Positions 10,335 through 46,631 of a stretch of 64,000 bases of DNA are shown here, piece by piece. The notes under the pieces are model-generated. The model was given only the letters and a program-made list of their open reading frames with translations, searched no databases and was not told the origin of the DNA. Made by a program: the position numbers and the translations under genes. Origin of the DNA: Fimbriimonadaceae bacterium (GTDB lineage Bacteria; Armatimonadota; Fimbriimonadia; Fimbriimonadales; Fimbriimonadaceae). The DNA is taken from assembly GCA_019638675.1 (NCBI GenBank), contig JAHBTE010000001.1, positions 1,892,605 to 1,956,604 of the forward strand, given 5' to 3'. Within the stretch, counting starts at the first letter, position 1. Each line of letters opens with the position of its first letter.

Positions 10335-11231
10335 TTATTTGTCTGCTAAGCGAACAACGGAATCGTTCATCAATTGCGTGAAAGTGCCTGCTTCGTCGGC
10401 TTCATTGAGTTCAGGATAATAAGCACAATCGAAAACCTTTTCGCCCGCAAAAAATCGTTCGGCGACATCATCTTCGGTGAGGGCAACTCGGAGCGCAGGC
10501 ACAAGTTGAATGGTGCGAGAATCCAGATTGAGGTTTTCTGTGAGTTCCAATGGGGGATAAAACGCTGAGTTACAAGCTTCCAAGTGAACGGCGTTGTGCC
10601 TAACCGTTTCTAACTGCTGGGGTTGCTGGTGGATTGGGAGCAAGCCAGATTTATAGGCTCGTTCGCATTGGCGAACCGAATAACTGTGATATCTCATGCA
10701 CGGCGAGGGCCGAGCCGGATGCCCGACGCAGAGGCCATCGAGGTTCAGCGGGCACATTCGCGATTTCAGAATCTTTTCTTCAGTGGTTGACTTATCCCAC
10801 TCCGCCATGTATTCATCAATCCGGGTTAAGAGTTCAATTATTTCCTCCGGCTTGAGGCTTGCTTTGAGATACCGGGCGAGGGAGAGAACTTCGAGCGGCA
10901 CGGTGGCAACCCGGATCGCGCAACAGTAGTTGCATCCCTTTTTGCACTCGAAATTTGCCGCGTCGGGGTTTTGGTCGAGCAGGTTGCTGGTGTACCGGTG
11001 AACCTCTTGCACCGCATCTATCAGGCCACCAACCGTCGGGTTTTGGCGATAGATGTTCAGCAAATGGTATGCGCTTTGCAAATAGACAACCGCGAATTTG
11101 TTGAGCGATTCGGGGAGGTCGGCGGGCGGGAGAGGGATGTTGAACTCTTTGGCAAGTTCGTACCCTTTGAGTGTTTGTTCAGAACTGGTAAGCGTCGGGC
11201 GATCGTATCGCTGCTCTTGGTTCTGACCCAC
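10335..11231 (-). CDS. YkgJ-type Cys-cluster (zinc/iron-chelating) protein
   Basis: 298 residues. Central CKKGCNYCCAIRV gives the C-x3-C-x2-CC signature of the YkgJ/CxxCxxCC family. More Cys follow in CPLNLDGLCVGHPARPSPCMRY, as in that family, whose members are predicted to bind metal or an Fe-S cluster; the biochemical role is not established. The N-terminal 80 residues are helical with no membrane segment. It lies 43 bp upstream of the RFCSHC protein gene on the same strand, so two putative metal-binding Cys proteins may be co-transcribed. Confidence 0.85.
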   Translation of the reverse strand: MGQNQEQRYDRPTLTSSEQTLKGYELAKEFNIPLPPADLPESLNKFAVVYLQSAYHLLNIYRQNPTVGGLIDAVQEVHRYTSNLLDQNPDAANFECKKGCNYCCAIRVATVPLEVLSLARYLKASLKPEEIIELLTRIDEYMAEWDKSTTEEKILKSRMCPLNLDGLCVGHPARPSPCMRYHSYSVRQCERAYKSGLLPIHQQPQQLETVRHNAVHLEACNSAFYPPLELTENLNLDSRTIQLVPALRVALTEDDVAERFFAGEKVFDCAYYPELNEADEAGTFTQLMNDSVVRLADK

Positions 11232-11280
11232 TGGGCGAGTTTATCAGAACCAGGATCGAATATTTGTGAGTCGAAACCGA

Positions 11281-11577
11281 TTAGGAGTTTTTATCAAGTA
11301 CTTGAGGGCAATCTAAAGTCTTGAGCTGTGAACCATCACGGGGGAATTGTTTCGGTTGAGATCCATTCAGAATTGCTGGTGCATCTACACCCTTTCCAGT
11401 AGCTTGAATCTTTTCATGAGCTAGTTCAACAGTATGAAATTTTAAGTGCCAACGGCTAATCACAAGAGAGTTTGTTGCCTTAGGCGAACCTCTAAACAAC
11501 TCGCTTATATGGGTTACTGCCCAATTCAATACTTTCTTTAGCCAAATTCCCAGTTTCGTAATCCACGTAATTTCCAT
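11281..11577 (-). CDS. Small unknown protein A (98 aa), likely paralog of protein B
   Basis: Begins MEITWITKLGIWLKKVLNW, a Trp-rich amphipathic or membrane-surface helix. A variable middle and the motif QATGKGVDAPAIL follow (about residues 58-70). The gene at 12277-12522 has AAGKGVNAPVL in the corresponding place, plus a matching SP(P)K...SL stretch before it, so the two look like distant paralogs. The frame is open to 11604. The ATG at 11577 is preferred because it has a GGAAGG ribosome site and matches the start of B. Codon use and base content differ from neighbouring housekeeping genes. Not recognised; no function proposed beyond membrane association. Confidence 0.55.
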   Translation of the reverse strand: MEITWITKLGIWLKKVLNWAVTHISELFRGSPKATNSLVISRWHLKFHTVELAHEKIQATGKGVDAPAILNGSQPKQFPRDGSQLKTLDCPQVLDKNS

Positions 11578-11596
11578 GTAGAGCCTTCCAACACGA

Positions 11597-11689
11597 CCCC
11601 CCACAGACGCCTGGCATTTTACAAGGATAATCCTTGTTCACGATATTCTGTTTTCAGCTTTAGCGTTGTTCTTTTGGGGGAGAACAACG
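11597..11689 (-). promoter_or_regulatory. Structured leader of small gene A
   Basis: On the minus strand, CGTTGTTCT and AGAACAACG (11664-11689) form a perfect 9-bp stem around a C-rich loop, CCCCCAAA. About 60 nt further on, a G-run (TGTGGGGGGTCG, 11597-11602) can pair with the loop, shortly before GTGTTGGAAGG-CTCTAC-ATG. A 17-bp interrupted palindrome, ACAAGGAT-a-ATCCTTGT (11621-11637), lies between them. The same design with different stem bases precedes small gene B. Confidence 0.45.
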
Positions 11690-11786
11690 TATCTTTTTTT
11701 TCATTTTATGTCCCTGTGGAGCCAGTTCAGTGGCGCTACAATAACCAAGACGGGAATTTGCGCTTATCCGATGCTCTAATTTTGAA

Positions 11787-11999
11787 ATGATCAATAAATC
11801 AGGCGCAAAAAATCCTCTTAAGCCTCTCTTAGGCGCTGTTCGACAAGCGGAGAAAAGCCGAGACGTTGAGCAGGTTAAATCCGCACGGCAAAATCTTTAC
11901 GAAGTTGCCGCACGGATTAGAAGTCAGGTCCAGGAAGCGACTAAAGGCAAAAAGGGAATTGATAAGTGGCGCATGGTCAAGTCAGCGTTGGGCGGTTAA
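11787..11999 (+). CDS. Small basic helical protein (70 aa)
   Basis: The sequence is Lys/Arg-rich and predicted almost wholly helical (for example LLGAVRQAEKSRDVEQVKSA and VAARIRSQVQEATKG). It has no signal peptide or hydrophobic segment. It lies within the small-gene stretch and shares its TTAA stop region with the convergent gene ending at 11996. A -10-like TACAAT lies at 11737-11742. Not recognised. The composition would suit nucleic-acid or protein binding, but this is only compositional. Confidence 0.5.
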   Translation: MINKSGAKNPLKPLLGAVRQAEKSRDVEQVKSARQNLYEVAARIRSQVQEATKGKKGIDKWRMVKSALGG

Positions 12000-12217
12000 T
12001 TTAGATAGTTCATCCTTGGACCAATATATCTAAGTCTGCCTTCCTCATCAAAGAGAATTCGTATCGGTACATTATTATCTCTTCTGCTCCAATACTTAGT
12101 ATCAGCCAATGGAATTTGCATTGTTTCTCCATTGTCCAAAAAAAGTAACTGTCCGTTACGTCGTTCTATGCCAATTAAATCACTATAAAGTGCTTGAGGT
12201 ACAAATTTATCATTCAT
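11996..12217 (-). CDS. Small unknown protein (73 aa)
   Basis: Begins MNDKFVPQALYSDLIGIERR, with alternating polar and hydrophobic residues that suggest a small beta-rich fold (QLLFLDNGETMQIPLADTKYW, then IRILFDEEGRLRYIGPRM). No signal peptide or Cys. Its stop overlaps the convergent small gene by 4 bp. The local sequence is A+T-rich, unlike the neighbouring housekeeping genes. Not recognised. Confidence 0.5.
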   Translation of the reverse strand: MNDKFVPQALYSDLIGIERRNGQLLFLDNGETMQIPLADTKYWSRRDNNVPIRILFDEEGRLRYIGPRMNYLN

Positions 12218-12276
12218 GCTTATATTCTACCATGCGAATTTTGAAATTTTAAAAAGCTATCTTTTAAAAATCTTAA

Positions 12277-12522
12277 TTACTTTTGAACTTCGTGCGGCAA
12301 GGCAGACTGGGAATCTTCCTCAGATTTGACCGTCAATACTGGCGCATTTACACCTTTGCCTGCCGCTCTCGTGCGCCTATACTGGAATTTGCCACTCTTC
12401 AAATCGACATTTATTGCCAATTCTTCGAGAGAGTCCTTTGGTGGTGACGGGGCAGAGAAAACTGCCTTAACTTGCTTACAAATTTGTAAGAACCAATTCC
12501 ACGCGATACTCAGACTGTCCAT
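12277..12522 (-). CDS. Small unknown protein B (81 aa), likely paralog of protein A
   Basis: Begins MDSLSIAWNWFLQICKQVKAVF, an amphipathic Trp-containing helix, then SPPKDSLEELAINVDLKSG and the motif RAAGKGVNAPVLTV. Protein A has SPK..NSLVI and ATGKGVDAP at the same places. The frame is open to 12546. The ATG at 12522 is preferred because GGGAG lies 5 nt before it and TACATGGA is shared with gene A. Identity between A and B is low outside the motif, so paralogy is an inference from motif, order and shared leader. Function unknown. Confidence 0.55.
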   Translation of the reverse strand: MDSLSIAWNWFLQICKQVKAVFSAPSPPKDSLEELAINVDLKSGKFQYRRTRAAGKGVNAPVLTVKSEEDSQSALPHEVQK

Positions 12523-12539
12523 GTAACTCCCACACGTTC

Positions 12540-12618
12540 TCCCCATAAACGTGTTGTTACGAACGAATCTGTTCGGTTTGGTTAATTTGGTCTCCGAGCA
12601 CTATGGGGAAGTGCTCGG
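12540..12618 (-). promoter_or_regulatory. Structured leader of small gene B
   Basis: CCGAGCACT (12610-12618 on the minus strand) and AGTGCTCGG (12594-12602) form a perfect 9-bp stem with loop TCCCCAT. Forty-six nucleotides on, TATGGGGA (12540-12547) is fully complementary to the eight bases TCCCCATA of the loop and its 3' edge. It is followed by GAACGTGTGGGAG-TTAC-ATG. The stem bases differ completely from those of leader A, while pairing, C-rich loop and downstream G-run are kept. Confidence 0.45.
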
Positions 12619-12766
12619 TAATAAATCTGGTTGATTGGTTGTTCCTGCGGCTACCGCCTCTCGGTTAGTAGTCACAAATTATCATACGAAAAAAATGTAC
12701 AATTAGTCTCAAGCTCCAAGAATTTCCTACTTTTTTCCCTAAAGGAATCCTGCACCCCAATCTCGA

Positions 12767-12788
12767 AAAAAGCCACAAATGGCTTTTT
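12767..12788. terminator. Bidirectional terminator-like hairpin
   Basis: AAAAAGCCA (12767-12775), loop CAAA, TGGCTTTTT (12780-12788). The A and T tracts make it terminator-like on both strands. It could end a minus-strand transcript that includes tRNA-Thr. Confidence 0.55.
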
Positions 12789-12907
12789 CTAATTTTAACC
12801 GGGTGATTCGTACCCATTACCAGGAAGTTGATGACATCCTGCTTGCGCTTGCTGCTTCGACCGAGCCACGCTCAGGCGTAATCATCGCAGCAACCCAGCT
12901 TCTCTAA
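12779..12907 (+). CDS. Possible 42-residue protein or gene remnant
   Basis: The frame starts inside the hairpin at 12779 and reads MAFSNFNRVIRTHYQEVDD, ending GVIIAATQLL before a TAA. It looks protein-like, but it has no ribosome site and its ATG is within the terminator stem, so it may be a fragment of a decayed gene rather than an expressed one. Confidence 0.2.
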   Translation: MAFSNFNRVIRTHYQEVDDILLALAASTEPRSGVIIAATQLL

Positions 12908-13118
12908 CTGGAGAATCCGCCTCAAACGTCTTTAACTTATTTTGGTCAGGAAGTAGATTTGCATGAATAAGTCAGCTATGAGAAGCAGTGTAAAAAATAC
13001 TCCTTACATTTCTTAACATAAACAGATACCTTGGCTAATCGACAAGAGGTTAATTAAGATAATCGATTCTCTTAGCACTTGATGGAATAGGTCAGGCAAA
13101 TATTAGTAGTTTAAGGTC

Positions 13119-44301: not shown

Positions 44302-46631
44302 GGCTCAGTGCTTTCGGCTTCTTCTGATTGTACGGGATTTTCGGTTAGCTGTTGCTTTCTCACCGGGATCAAGTCCGGTTTAACGGCAAAAATGAGGGCA
44401 AAAACCGCAAGGATGTATAGGAACACGGGCGATTTTGATCCAGGTGGGATGTAAACGAATGAAAGGTTTTGTGACCCTTCCTTCAATTCAACTTCTATCC
44501 ATGTTTCGCCGCTGATCGGTAGCGGGCCGCTGTTATCAAATGCGATCCAGCCAGGGATGTTGCGGTAACGCGCGGTGAGTTTTCCTGGCCCGGTGGCCGT
44601 TACTTTGAACCCTTGAGTATTGAGTTCTGTGATTTGGGCGTCTTGCTGAGGGCTAGAAAGTAACCCCGGCCCAGCAAGATGATAAATAAAATATCCTTCC
44701 TTGAGTTCGGTGGGTTCGGATAGCTGGGGCAACTGAAGCCTCGACCAAAGTTCGGTGACGCCCGCTTCGGAGAGTTTCGCGGGATCAAATTTGTTTTTAA
44801 TGAACATCATGTTGCCGTTGATCGGCGGGGCCGCATCTTCGGTATTGATGTCCCGGAGCAGGGCAACCGTATCACGGTGGAGCAGAGAATCGTAACCGCC
44901 GATGTCCTGCATCCGATTGATCGTGGCTGTATTGGGTGGCATGAGCGCAGTTGTCGCGCGGAAGAAATCCCACGGGCCGTTTACAAACGCACGCCGGGTT
45001 TGTAATTCGGTTGCCTGAGGCTTTGGCGGCGGCGTGCTAAATGGCAAAATCTGCGTCTGTGCAAGGATTAAGTGGGCCAGCAAAGCCAAACCAGTTCCGA
45101 GCCATAACTGCGCTTTTTTTGCCCACATAAACCAGGCTCCCGCGCTGAGAGCAATGGAAACGAGAATCAGAGGCAGAGTCGCAACCAGTCGCCGTGCGAC
45201 GGATTGGGCAACTGAATCGCCGGGAATCCACGTTGGTAGGCTTCCGAGTGTGTTGACGTAGAGAATCGTGGCTACACAAACCGCAAGCAAAACAAAAAAG
45301 CTGGTTGCTTTTTCTTTAGGGTTAGTGTCGCTCGAATCTCGGGGGATGGCGATTGCCGCCAAGGTGCAAGCCGCGATCACAAACAGGATTCCCGCTCGAC
45401 CAGGCGAACCAGTTGCACTGAATCCAGGGATGTTGAAGTAGAGCAGTGCGTTCAGTCCGGTTCCAAGCGCCAAAGCTAATCCAAAAAGTCCGATTGCAAT
45501 CACTGGAGCGGTCGCTTTGAGGTCGATCCGACGACGAATCATTAATAACGCAAGCAGAATGGGAACGGTCAAGTAAATGGCGGACTCGGCATAGTTTCCT
45601 CCCGCTTTAACTCTCATCGGCCAAGTGTTGGGAATGACGCTTTCTTCAGATTCTTCTTCGGGAACTCCCGGCGCGCCAAGCAATCCGGGTGCAACCAAAC
45701 CGATGAGTTCATACGACTTCACGCTTGAGGCTTGATAAGCGGCAAATCCTTCGGCGGTTGGGGCACCTGCACGGTGCGAATACTGACTGAAACTCTGCAC
45801 TGGACTCAATTGGCAGAGCGAAGCGGCTAATCCAAGAAAAACTGCACCGATCGCGAGAGCAGAACCCCAGATGTGGTTTCTAGATTTCCAATTGCCAATT
45901 GCGGCCCAAATCAACCCTGCAATAAGAAGGGCGAGCAAACCATACAGAGTGAACTGCAAATGCCCGCCTGTGCAGAGCATAGCCACCGATCCACCTAGAG
46001 TGATGAAACTGGCAAAGGTGTATTTATTGATAGAGCGGTGCAGGCAGGCCAGAGCGACGGGAATCCAGCAACAGGTCGTCATCACGCTGGGCAGAGCCGT
46101 CCACGCGATGGCAAATGGACTGAGAGCGAAGGCCGCAGCACCAAACACCGCTCCCGGTTCACCCGCGCCAAGTCGCTTCGCAAGGGCCCGAACACCTAAT
46201 GCCCCTATTGCTAAATGAATCCAAGCAAGCAAGGAAATAGCTAGACCAGTCGGAATTCCTAGCTCACCAAAAAGAAAATGCAACGGGTAGAAGGGGGCTG
46301 ATTGTGAATTAGCCGCGAGTGGAGTTCCACCGAGTTGGTAAGGATTCCAACCTGGGTGTTTTCCGGTTCGATGAGTTTCAAAAACTAAATCCCGCCATCC
46401 GTAAAACTGGAGTGCGCCATCTGCCTGCAAGATATCCCAAGCCCGGTTCGATTCTTGAGTTTCCCAAGTGGGAACCATTTTCGAGATTTGGTCGAACGGG
46501 CCGATGACTTTGCCTGTGAAAACCGCGGGCCATAGCGCAATAAGGGGCACCAAAACGAGGAATAACACAATCGCCCAGTTGGGGATGCTGATACTTGGCT
46601 TAGTAGGCTGCGGAGTTTCTTCCACGTTCAA
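44298..46631 (-). CDS. YfhO-like membrane protein
   Basis: 777 residues, about 12 hydrophobic helices in the first 500 residues and a C-terminal periplasmic region (LTARYRNIPGWIAFDNSGPLPI is YfhO-like). The N-terminal FDQISKMVPTWE and GWNPYQLGGTPLAANSQSAPFYPLHFLF patterns are typical of YfhO-family (Bacterial membrane protein YfhO) GT-C-like proteins with proposed roles in glycosylation. It is in an operon TPR-YfhO-clpS-clpS. No catalytic residues are assigned with confidence. Confidence 0.78.
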   Translation of the reverse strand: MNVEETPQPTKPSISIPNWAIVLFLVLVPLIALWPAVFTGKVIGPFDQISKMVPTWETQESNRAWDILQADGALQFYGWRDLVFETHRTGKHPGWNPYQLGGTPLAANSQSAPFYPLHFLFGELGIPTGLAISLLAWIHLAIGALGVRALAKRLGAGEPGAVFGAAAFALSPFAIAWTALPSVMTTCCWIPVALACLHRSINKYTFASFITLGGSVAMLCTGGHLQFTLYGLLALLIAGLIWAAIGNWKSRNHIWGSALAIGAVFLGLAASLCQLSPVQSFSQYSHRAGAPTAEGFAAYQASSVKSYELIGLVAPGLLGAPGVPEEESEESVIPNTWPMRVKAGGNYAESAIYLTVPILLALLMIRRRIDLKATAPVIAIGLFGLALALGTGLNALLYFNIPGFSATGSPGRAGILFVIAACTLAAIAIPRDSSDTNPKEKATSFFVLLAVCVATILYVNTLGSLPTWIPGDSVAQSVARRLVATLPLILVSIALSAGAWFMWAKKAQLWLGTGLALLAHLILAQTQILPFSTPPPKPQATELQTRRAFVNGPWDFFRATTALMPPNTATINRMQDIGGYDSLLHRDTVALLRDINTEDAAPPINGNMMFIKNKFDPAKLSEAGVTELWSRLQLPQLSEPTELKEGYFIYHLAGPGLLSSPQQDAQITELNTQGFKVTATGPGKLTARYRNIPGWIAFDNSGPLPISGETWIEVELKEGSQNLSFVYIPPGSKSPVFLYILAVFALIFAVKPDLIPVRKQQLTENPVQSEEAESTEP

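Follow-up and report, generated by a model that had tools for sequence, protein, structure and literature searches.

Does the sequence between a hairpin and the gene behind it form an RNA element that controls that gene? The stretch of DNA analysed here (the window; 64 kb of the 2.85-Mb genome G000) raises this question twice, because its minus strand carries two small genes, A and B, each preceded by a hairpin. A first-pass annotation had located both ORFs and both hairpins and had assigned the two proteins a common motif; re-reading of the sequence found the coordinates and sequences correct and A[TA]GKGV[DN]AP common to both. We favor a cis-acting pseudoknotted leader of a lineage-specific small-gene family, controlling translation, and give this reading somewhat better than even odds (about 0.55). 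The evidence now includes a helix beside the G-run (P2), a further hairpin (HP3), and a third copy in the sister species G081, all additional to the annotation. Feature positions are collected in Table 1.

A and B both belong to a lineage-specific family of small genes. Their proteins are ~24% identical (pairwise BLASTP, E = 3e-4 in one single comparison). Neither matched an entry in Pfam, NCBIfam or PHROGs, and the G081 protein had no match in NCBIfam or PHROGs (Pfam was run for A and B only). At the gathering threshold Rfam recognised only tRNA in the window, and a search of 11200-13100 with E up to 10 returned chance matches only. AlphaFold models built from three sequences, of low confidence (mean pLDDT 55 for A and 65 for B), predict an N-terminal amphipathic helix (residues 3-28 in A, 3-22 in B), a beta-hairpin (37-46/51-60 and 31-40/45-54, respectively) and a disordered tail. 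The best Foldseek match, the XisI-like protein 2nlv, was not significant (E 0.077, probability 0.89, TM 0.39; query model pLDDT 65), and the XisI likeness is without sequence support.

The hairpin before each gene, HP1, has a perfect 9-bp stem, as described, and on its own it folds with z = -6.2 in A and z = -7.5 in B. Pairing is kept between the two copies as claimed, but the statement that the stem bases differ almost completely slightly overstates the case, as two-sided changes affect 5 of 9 pairs. The G081 stem (GUUGUUCU/AGGGCAAC) keeps eight pairs, two A-to-G changes turning into G-U pairs, and the best fold of the whole G081 leader is one without HP1. A downstream G-run is complementary to the HP1 loop, as also noted before; the match covers 6 bp in A and 7 bp in B, and 5 bp of complementarity are retained in G081. 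In B the loop UCCCCAU is the exact complement (7/7) of AUGGGGA, the loop of HP3. Since the G-run of B is itself a 7-nt hairpin loop, the arrangement there can be a kissing loop, beyond an H-type pseudoknot. A scan for hairpin pairs (stems of at least 8 bp, loops with at least 7 complementary nt) found the B pair to be unique on the minus strand of the window, and no such pair arose in 60 dinucleotide shuffles. Looser cut-offs also returned a pair on the plus strand (44988-45035, GCACGCCGG and GGCGGCGT) with 6 complementary loop nt, possibly a product of chance in GC-rich sequence. Separately, an anti-HP1 pairing of a conserved upstream AGGxACA with the 5' arm of HP1 is visible by eye in G081 and A and weak in B.

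Further helices occupy the sequence behind HP1. RNAalifold, unprompted, found the 5-bp helix P2 between a strand just after HP1 and a strand adjoining the G-run (ACAGA/UCUGU in A, ACUGA/UCAGU in G081, AUUAA/UUUAU with one mismatch in B); at its centre, A and G081 differ by an A-U to U-A exchange. The hairpin HP2 is situated between the P2 strands and shows one A-U to G-C exchange between the same two copies. HP3 folds weakly in A (z = -0.35), and in B its stem overlaps P2 by three bases; as it has zero two-sided changes, its support is positional and energetic only. Pairing of the 5' end with the start-codon region (P1; UGUAG or UGUGACU with CUACA, UUACA or AGUUACA) could form in each of the three copies but is inconsistently predicted, and because it is absent from the minimum-energy fold of B, we treat it as tentative. 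A Shine-Dalgarno sequence follows the leader in every copy (GGAAGG in A and G081, GGGAG in B), 4-8 nt before the start.

Table 1. Positions of the two small genes, their neighbour and the leader elements (window coordinates unless marked L034)
Feature	Copy	Position	Strand	Remarks
Gene	A	11281-11577	(-)	98-aa orphan small protein, motif ATGKGVDAP
Gene	B	12277-12522	(-)	81-aa paralogue of A, motif AAGKGVNAP
ORF		11996-12217	(-)	73 aa, 60 nt downstream of B, possibly co-transcribed, no family match
HP1	A	11689-11664	(-)	CGTTGTTCT-CCCCCAAA-AGAACAACG, 9 bp; loop CCCCCAAA at 11680-11673
HP1	B	12618-12594	(-)	CCGAGCACT-TCCCCAT-AGTGCTCGG, 9 bp; loop UCCCCAU at 12609-12603
P2, 5' strand	A	11647-11651	(-)	ACAGA
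P2, 5' strand	B	12582-12586	(-)	AUUAA; 4/5 pairs with UUUAU at 12549-12545
HP2	A	11621-11637	(-)	ACAAGGA-UUA-UCCUUGU
HP2	B	12560-12575	(-)	CGAAC-AGAUUC-GUUCG, read from sequence; shifted relative to A in the alignment, which is uncertain here for B
HP3 region	A	11588-11614	(-)	CCAGGCG...CGUGUUGG, weak; contains P2 3' strand UCUGU (11607-11603) and G-run (11602-11597)
HP3	B	12532-12554	(-)	8-bp hairpin ACACGUUU-AUGGGGA-GAACGUGU; loop 7/7 complementary to HP1 loop
P1, 5' strand (tentative)	A	11728-11741	(-)	UUGUAGCGCC..., can pair with start region GGCUCUACA
P1, 5' strand (tentative)	B	12664-12677	(-)	UGUGACU with AGUUACA at start codon; pairing probability < 0.1
Shine-Dalgarno	A	11584-11589	(-)	GGAAGG, from sequence
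Shine-Dalgarno	B	12527-12531	(-)	GGGAG, from sequence
In-frame upstream GTG	A	11604-11577	(-)	24-27 nt before start (all copies)
In-frame upstream ATG	B	12546-12522	(-)	
In-frame upstream GTG	G081	L034 9856-9885	(+)	

How far the structure is conserved can be judged from the third copy, which lies in G081 at the same tRNA-Thr locus as in G000. Identity between A and G081 is 85% in HP1, 72% in the leader from HP1 to the Shine-Dalgarno, 57% in the coding sequence and 55% in the 3' flank, the leader being better conserved than the coding sequence. The comparison of leaders suggested in the first-pass annotation gave none of the results named there as refuting (missing hairpin, missing covariation, lost pairing): this one relative from outside the genome keeps HP1, the loop/G-run pairing, P2 and HP2 through compensatory or wobble changes. 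When every possible 5-bp helix was screened for 2 or more two-sided changes, only HP1 and P2 passed, and 3.8% of column shuffles gave any such helix. With all helices taken together, 91.8% of cells over the three copies are paired and 10/29 pairs have two-sided changes; slid structures reached at most 53% paired and 0/500 shuffles attained the whole-structure values, a test in which related sequences can beat shuffles even without structure. As the alignment has three rows, two of them from one genome, which is too few for R-scape-type significance, the covariation is suggestive rather than proven. A leader of conserved structure is nevertheless present in each copy, directly before the Shine-Dalgarno, and this structured leader is probably real and lineage-restricted.

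We propose that each mRNA has a structured 5' leader of ~110 nt that would fold into a pseudoknot. The C-rich HP1 loop would pair with the G-run ~60-75 nt downstream, adjoining P2, which encloses HP2, and the G-run could also occupy the HP3 loop, as a kissing loop in B. Two topologies are conceivable on these pairings. In one, the G-run would pair from within the HP3 loop, as fits B best; in the other, it would continue P2 in a pseudoknot with HP2 inside, as fits A and G081 best. Both can coexist in A and G081, and they may be the two states of a switch or local variants of a single fold. Because the leader ends directly at the Shine-Dalgarno, once folded it would extend into the 30S loading zone; the Shine-Dalgarno, a good one, is placed 4-8 nt from the start, which would bring the 3' side of HP3 and the G-run within reach of an initiating 30S. 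Folding, in a leader presumably transcribed with its gene (a promoter search gave none that was well supported), would thereby act in cis to tune, and most likely repress, initiation on the ORF behind it. Candidate triggers are a metabolite, temperature, a trans RNA and the mini-protein itself. Since all three copies combine the RNA with the ORF, autoregulation by the mini-protein, one form of the joint action of RNA and protein suggested in the first-pass annotation, is an attractive candidate. The pseudoknot controlling translation that had been suggested for this locus fits in that the element ends at the Shine-Dalgarno and covers the would-be 30S loading zone; from three sequences it is not proven. 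Counting against it are the weak HP3 in A, the position of HP1 outside the best G081 fold, and the mismatch in P2 and its overlap with HP3 in B.

The G-run might instead be conserved for another reason. HP1 would then be a real mRNA-stabilising or processing hairpin, the G-run would be kept as coding or ribosome-binding sequence with translation starting in or next to it, and its pairing with the loop would be incidental. An in-frame start codon does open the HP3-loop G-run in all copies (GTG in A and G081, ATG in B), its frame to the annotated start is kept (27/27/24 nt in A/G081/B) despite two indels between A and G081, and G-runs are common near start sites. These codons may be alternative starts, and conservation of the G-run could be partly coding. 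However, a good Shine-Dalgarno precedes the downstream starts, whereas the upstream ones have no good one in B and G081, and incidental pairing leaves unexplained both P2 beside the G-run and the 7/7 loop-loop match in B. We regard this as a doubtful explanation with a real minority chance.

It is unlikely that the RNA has a function of its own as a small pseudoknotted molecule bound to the mini-protein whose gene directly follows it (as an RNP or autoregulatory pair), with the RNA better conserved than the protein; if true, this would be an RNA-plus-protein two-part cassette of a sort not described before. Quite improbable, too, is a cassette like type I toxin-antitoxin systems, in which a membrane-active mini-protein would be held in check by an antisense or trans RNA pairing with the exposed C- and G-loops, while the leader, by pairing with itself, would silence the mRNA. 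The proteins are small and basic with amphipathic N-terminal helices (hydrophobic moment 0.44-0.60), the paralogues are tandem and lineage-restricted, and the plus strand at 11663-11690 shows HP1 of A with eight T in a row behind it, which resembles a terminator for an antisense RNA of gene A. But this T-run is found in neither B nor G081. Unlike type I toxins, which are short, hydrophobic and usually transmembrane, the A and B proteins lack a transmembrane segment (19-residue Kyte-Doolittle maximum 0.27-0.83) and match no toxin family in Pfam, NCBIfam or PHROGs, and proteins of 81-98 aa with a predicted beta-hairpin are unlike the known examples.

The preferred pseudoknotted leader is an RNA element new in itself and of a known kind, the pseudoknot or kissing-loop leader, outside described families. 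In the repZ/repY leader of IncB/IncI-alpha plasmids, a C/G-rich hairpin loop pairs just upstream of the start site to form a translation-controlling pseudoknot, which activates synthesis of the replication protein under the control of an antisense RNA and of leader translation. By analogy, the C-rich HP1 loop is complementary to a stretch just before the start site, but none of the other parts is seen at A and B, which lie in the chromosome beside tRNA-Thr and an HPPD-like gene, with no replication gene and no plasmid relative. The ColE1 RNA I/RNA II kissing complex with Rop offers fully complementary 7-nt loops, as in B, and a small protein encoded nearby; there, however, the pairing joins two RNAs and Rop is a helical hairpin, whereas here the pairing would be intramolecular and the protein is predicted to be a helix plus beta-hairpin. 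In the cobalamin (btuB) riboswitch, a kissing loop connects the aptamer with the ribosome-binding-site part. According to Lussier 2015, as cited in PMC11162775, this contact between loops matters for sensing the ligand and for the regulation of btuB. The A and B leaders differ in having no cobalamin core, no B12 gene downstream and no Rfam match, and they are much smaller. In the guanidine-II riboswitch (mini-ykkC), translation is proposed to be controlled by a kissing contact between the loops of two hairpins upstream of the Shine-Dalgarno (PMC7544219). HP1 and HP3 appear to share this layout, with loops 7/7 complementary in B and a weaker HP3 in A; the likeness is one of layout only. The guanidine-II loops are ligand-binding tetraloops, in contrast to loops of 7-12 nt pairing over 5-7 bp here; P2 and HP2 lie between the paired loops, Rfam gave no match, and the downstream gene is an orphan instead of a guanidine transporter or enzyme.

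The element is narrowly distributed. Across 291 genomes of the phylum, the RNA model (R1) and the protein profile recovered no more than three copies, namely A, B and the one in G081. Searches with the profile and with single proteins found no further relative in the taxonomic family (85 genomes), the phylum (291), genome contigs (two scans), viral contigs, plasmids or phages, and most of the genus is without the gene family. Among the weak protein matches in the taxonomic family that were listed with sequence, all lay in unrelated sequence, and an R1 match in G240 (E = 0.007) was a CTCCCCCAGGAG-type repeat on the wrong strand at the end of an unrelated gene. Species-restricted structured RNAs are expected to be numerous and hard to prove (PMC6429828), and the A and B leaders are a concrete, testable example of a structured RNA confined to few species. 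If confirmed, they would found a new structured-leader family on an orphan, fast-evolving small protein, with an RNA fold more constrained than the protein, and would offer a tractable pair for studying the way in which RNA-level control is acquired or kept by a young gene, and whether a small protein reads its own leader.

The history of the locus can be followed in G081, where the copy is flanked on one side by tRNA-Thr and the HPPD-like gene and on the other by a remnant of a downstream CxxCxxCC-type gene. Protein A and its G081 counterpart are 43% identical (NG86 dN 0.45, dS 1.58; identity by codon position 0.55/0.73/0.50), against 99% for the HPPD-like protein (dS about 0.3-0.4). Its low dN relative to dS, set beside this slow neighbour, indicates that the A protein is under coding constraint and either evolves fast or forms with the G081 protein a pair of replaced alleles or paralogues, not simple orthologues. 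It is very unlikely that the hairpins work at the DNA level, as signals for the recombination or mobility of a small mobile cassette with the mini-gene as cargo. B and its neighbours (~1.35 kb) are present in G000 and missing from G081 at the same tRNA-Thr locus, and divergence within the A/G081 pair (dS 1.6) exceeds that of most flanking genes (dS 0.3-0.7), but the genome has only two copies and no repeat of the tRNA 3' end, the ORFs between 6 and 18 kb include no transposase or integrase, and the element always lies directly upstream of a coding start. Integrase-mediated insertion at the tRNA was considered and rejected, as the tRNA 3' end is not duplicated.

Other parts of the locus also differ between the species. 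In G000, ~330 nt separate tRNA-Thr from a terminator-like hairpin, AAAAAGCCA...TGGCTTTTTT (window 12767-13118, minus strand), whereas in G081 a terminator-like hairpin lies directly 3' of tRNA-Thr; nothing in Rfam matched the 12767-13118 stretch, and 41 genomes of the taxonomic family gave no long match to it. The CxxCxxCC-type gene (zinc- or iron-binding-like) is open over 298 codons in G000 (window 10335-11231, minus strand), and only ~48 codons are still recognisable in G081 (L034 10261-10410, plus strand). Its place in G081 is occupied by two small paralogous ORFs (L034 10640-10854 and 10997-11212, plus strand; 33% identical over 55 aa, E 9e-7), which suggests a hotspot of small-gene turnover beside this tRNA-Thr.
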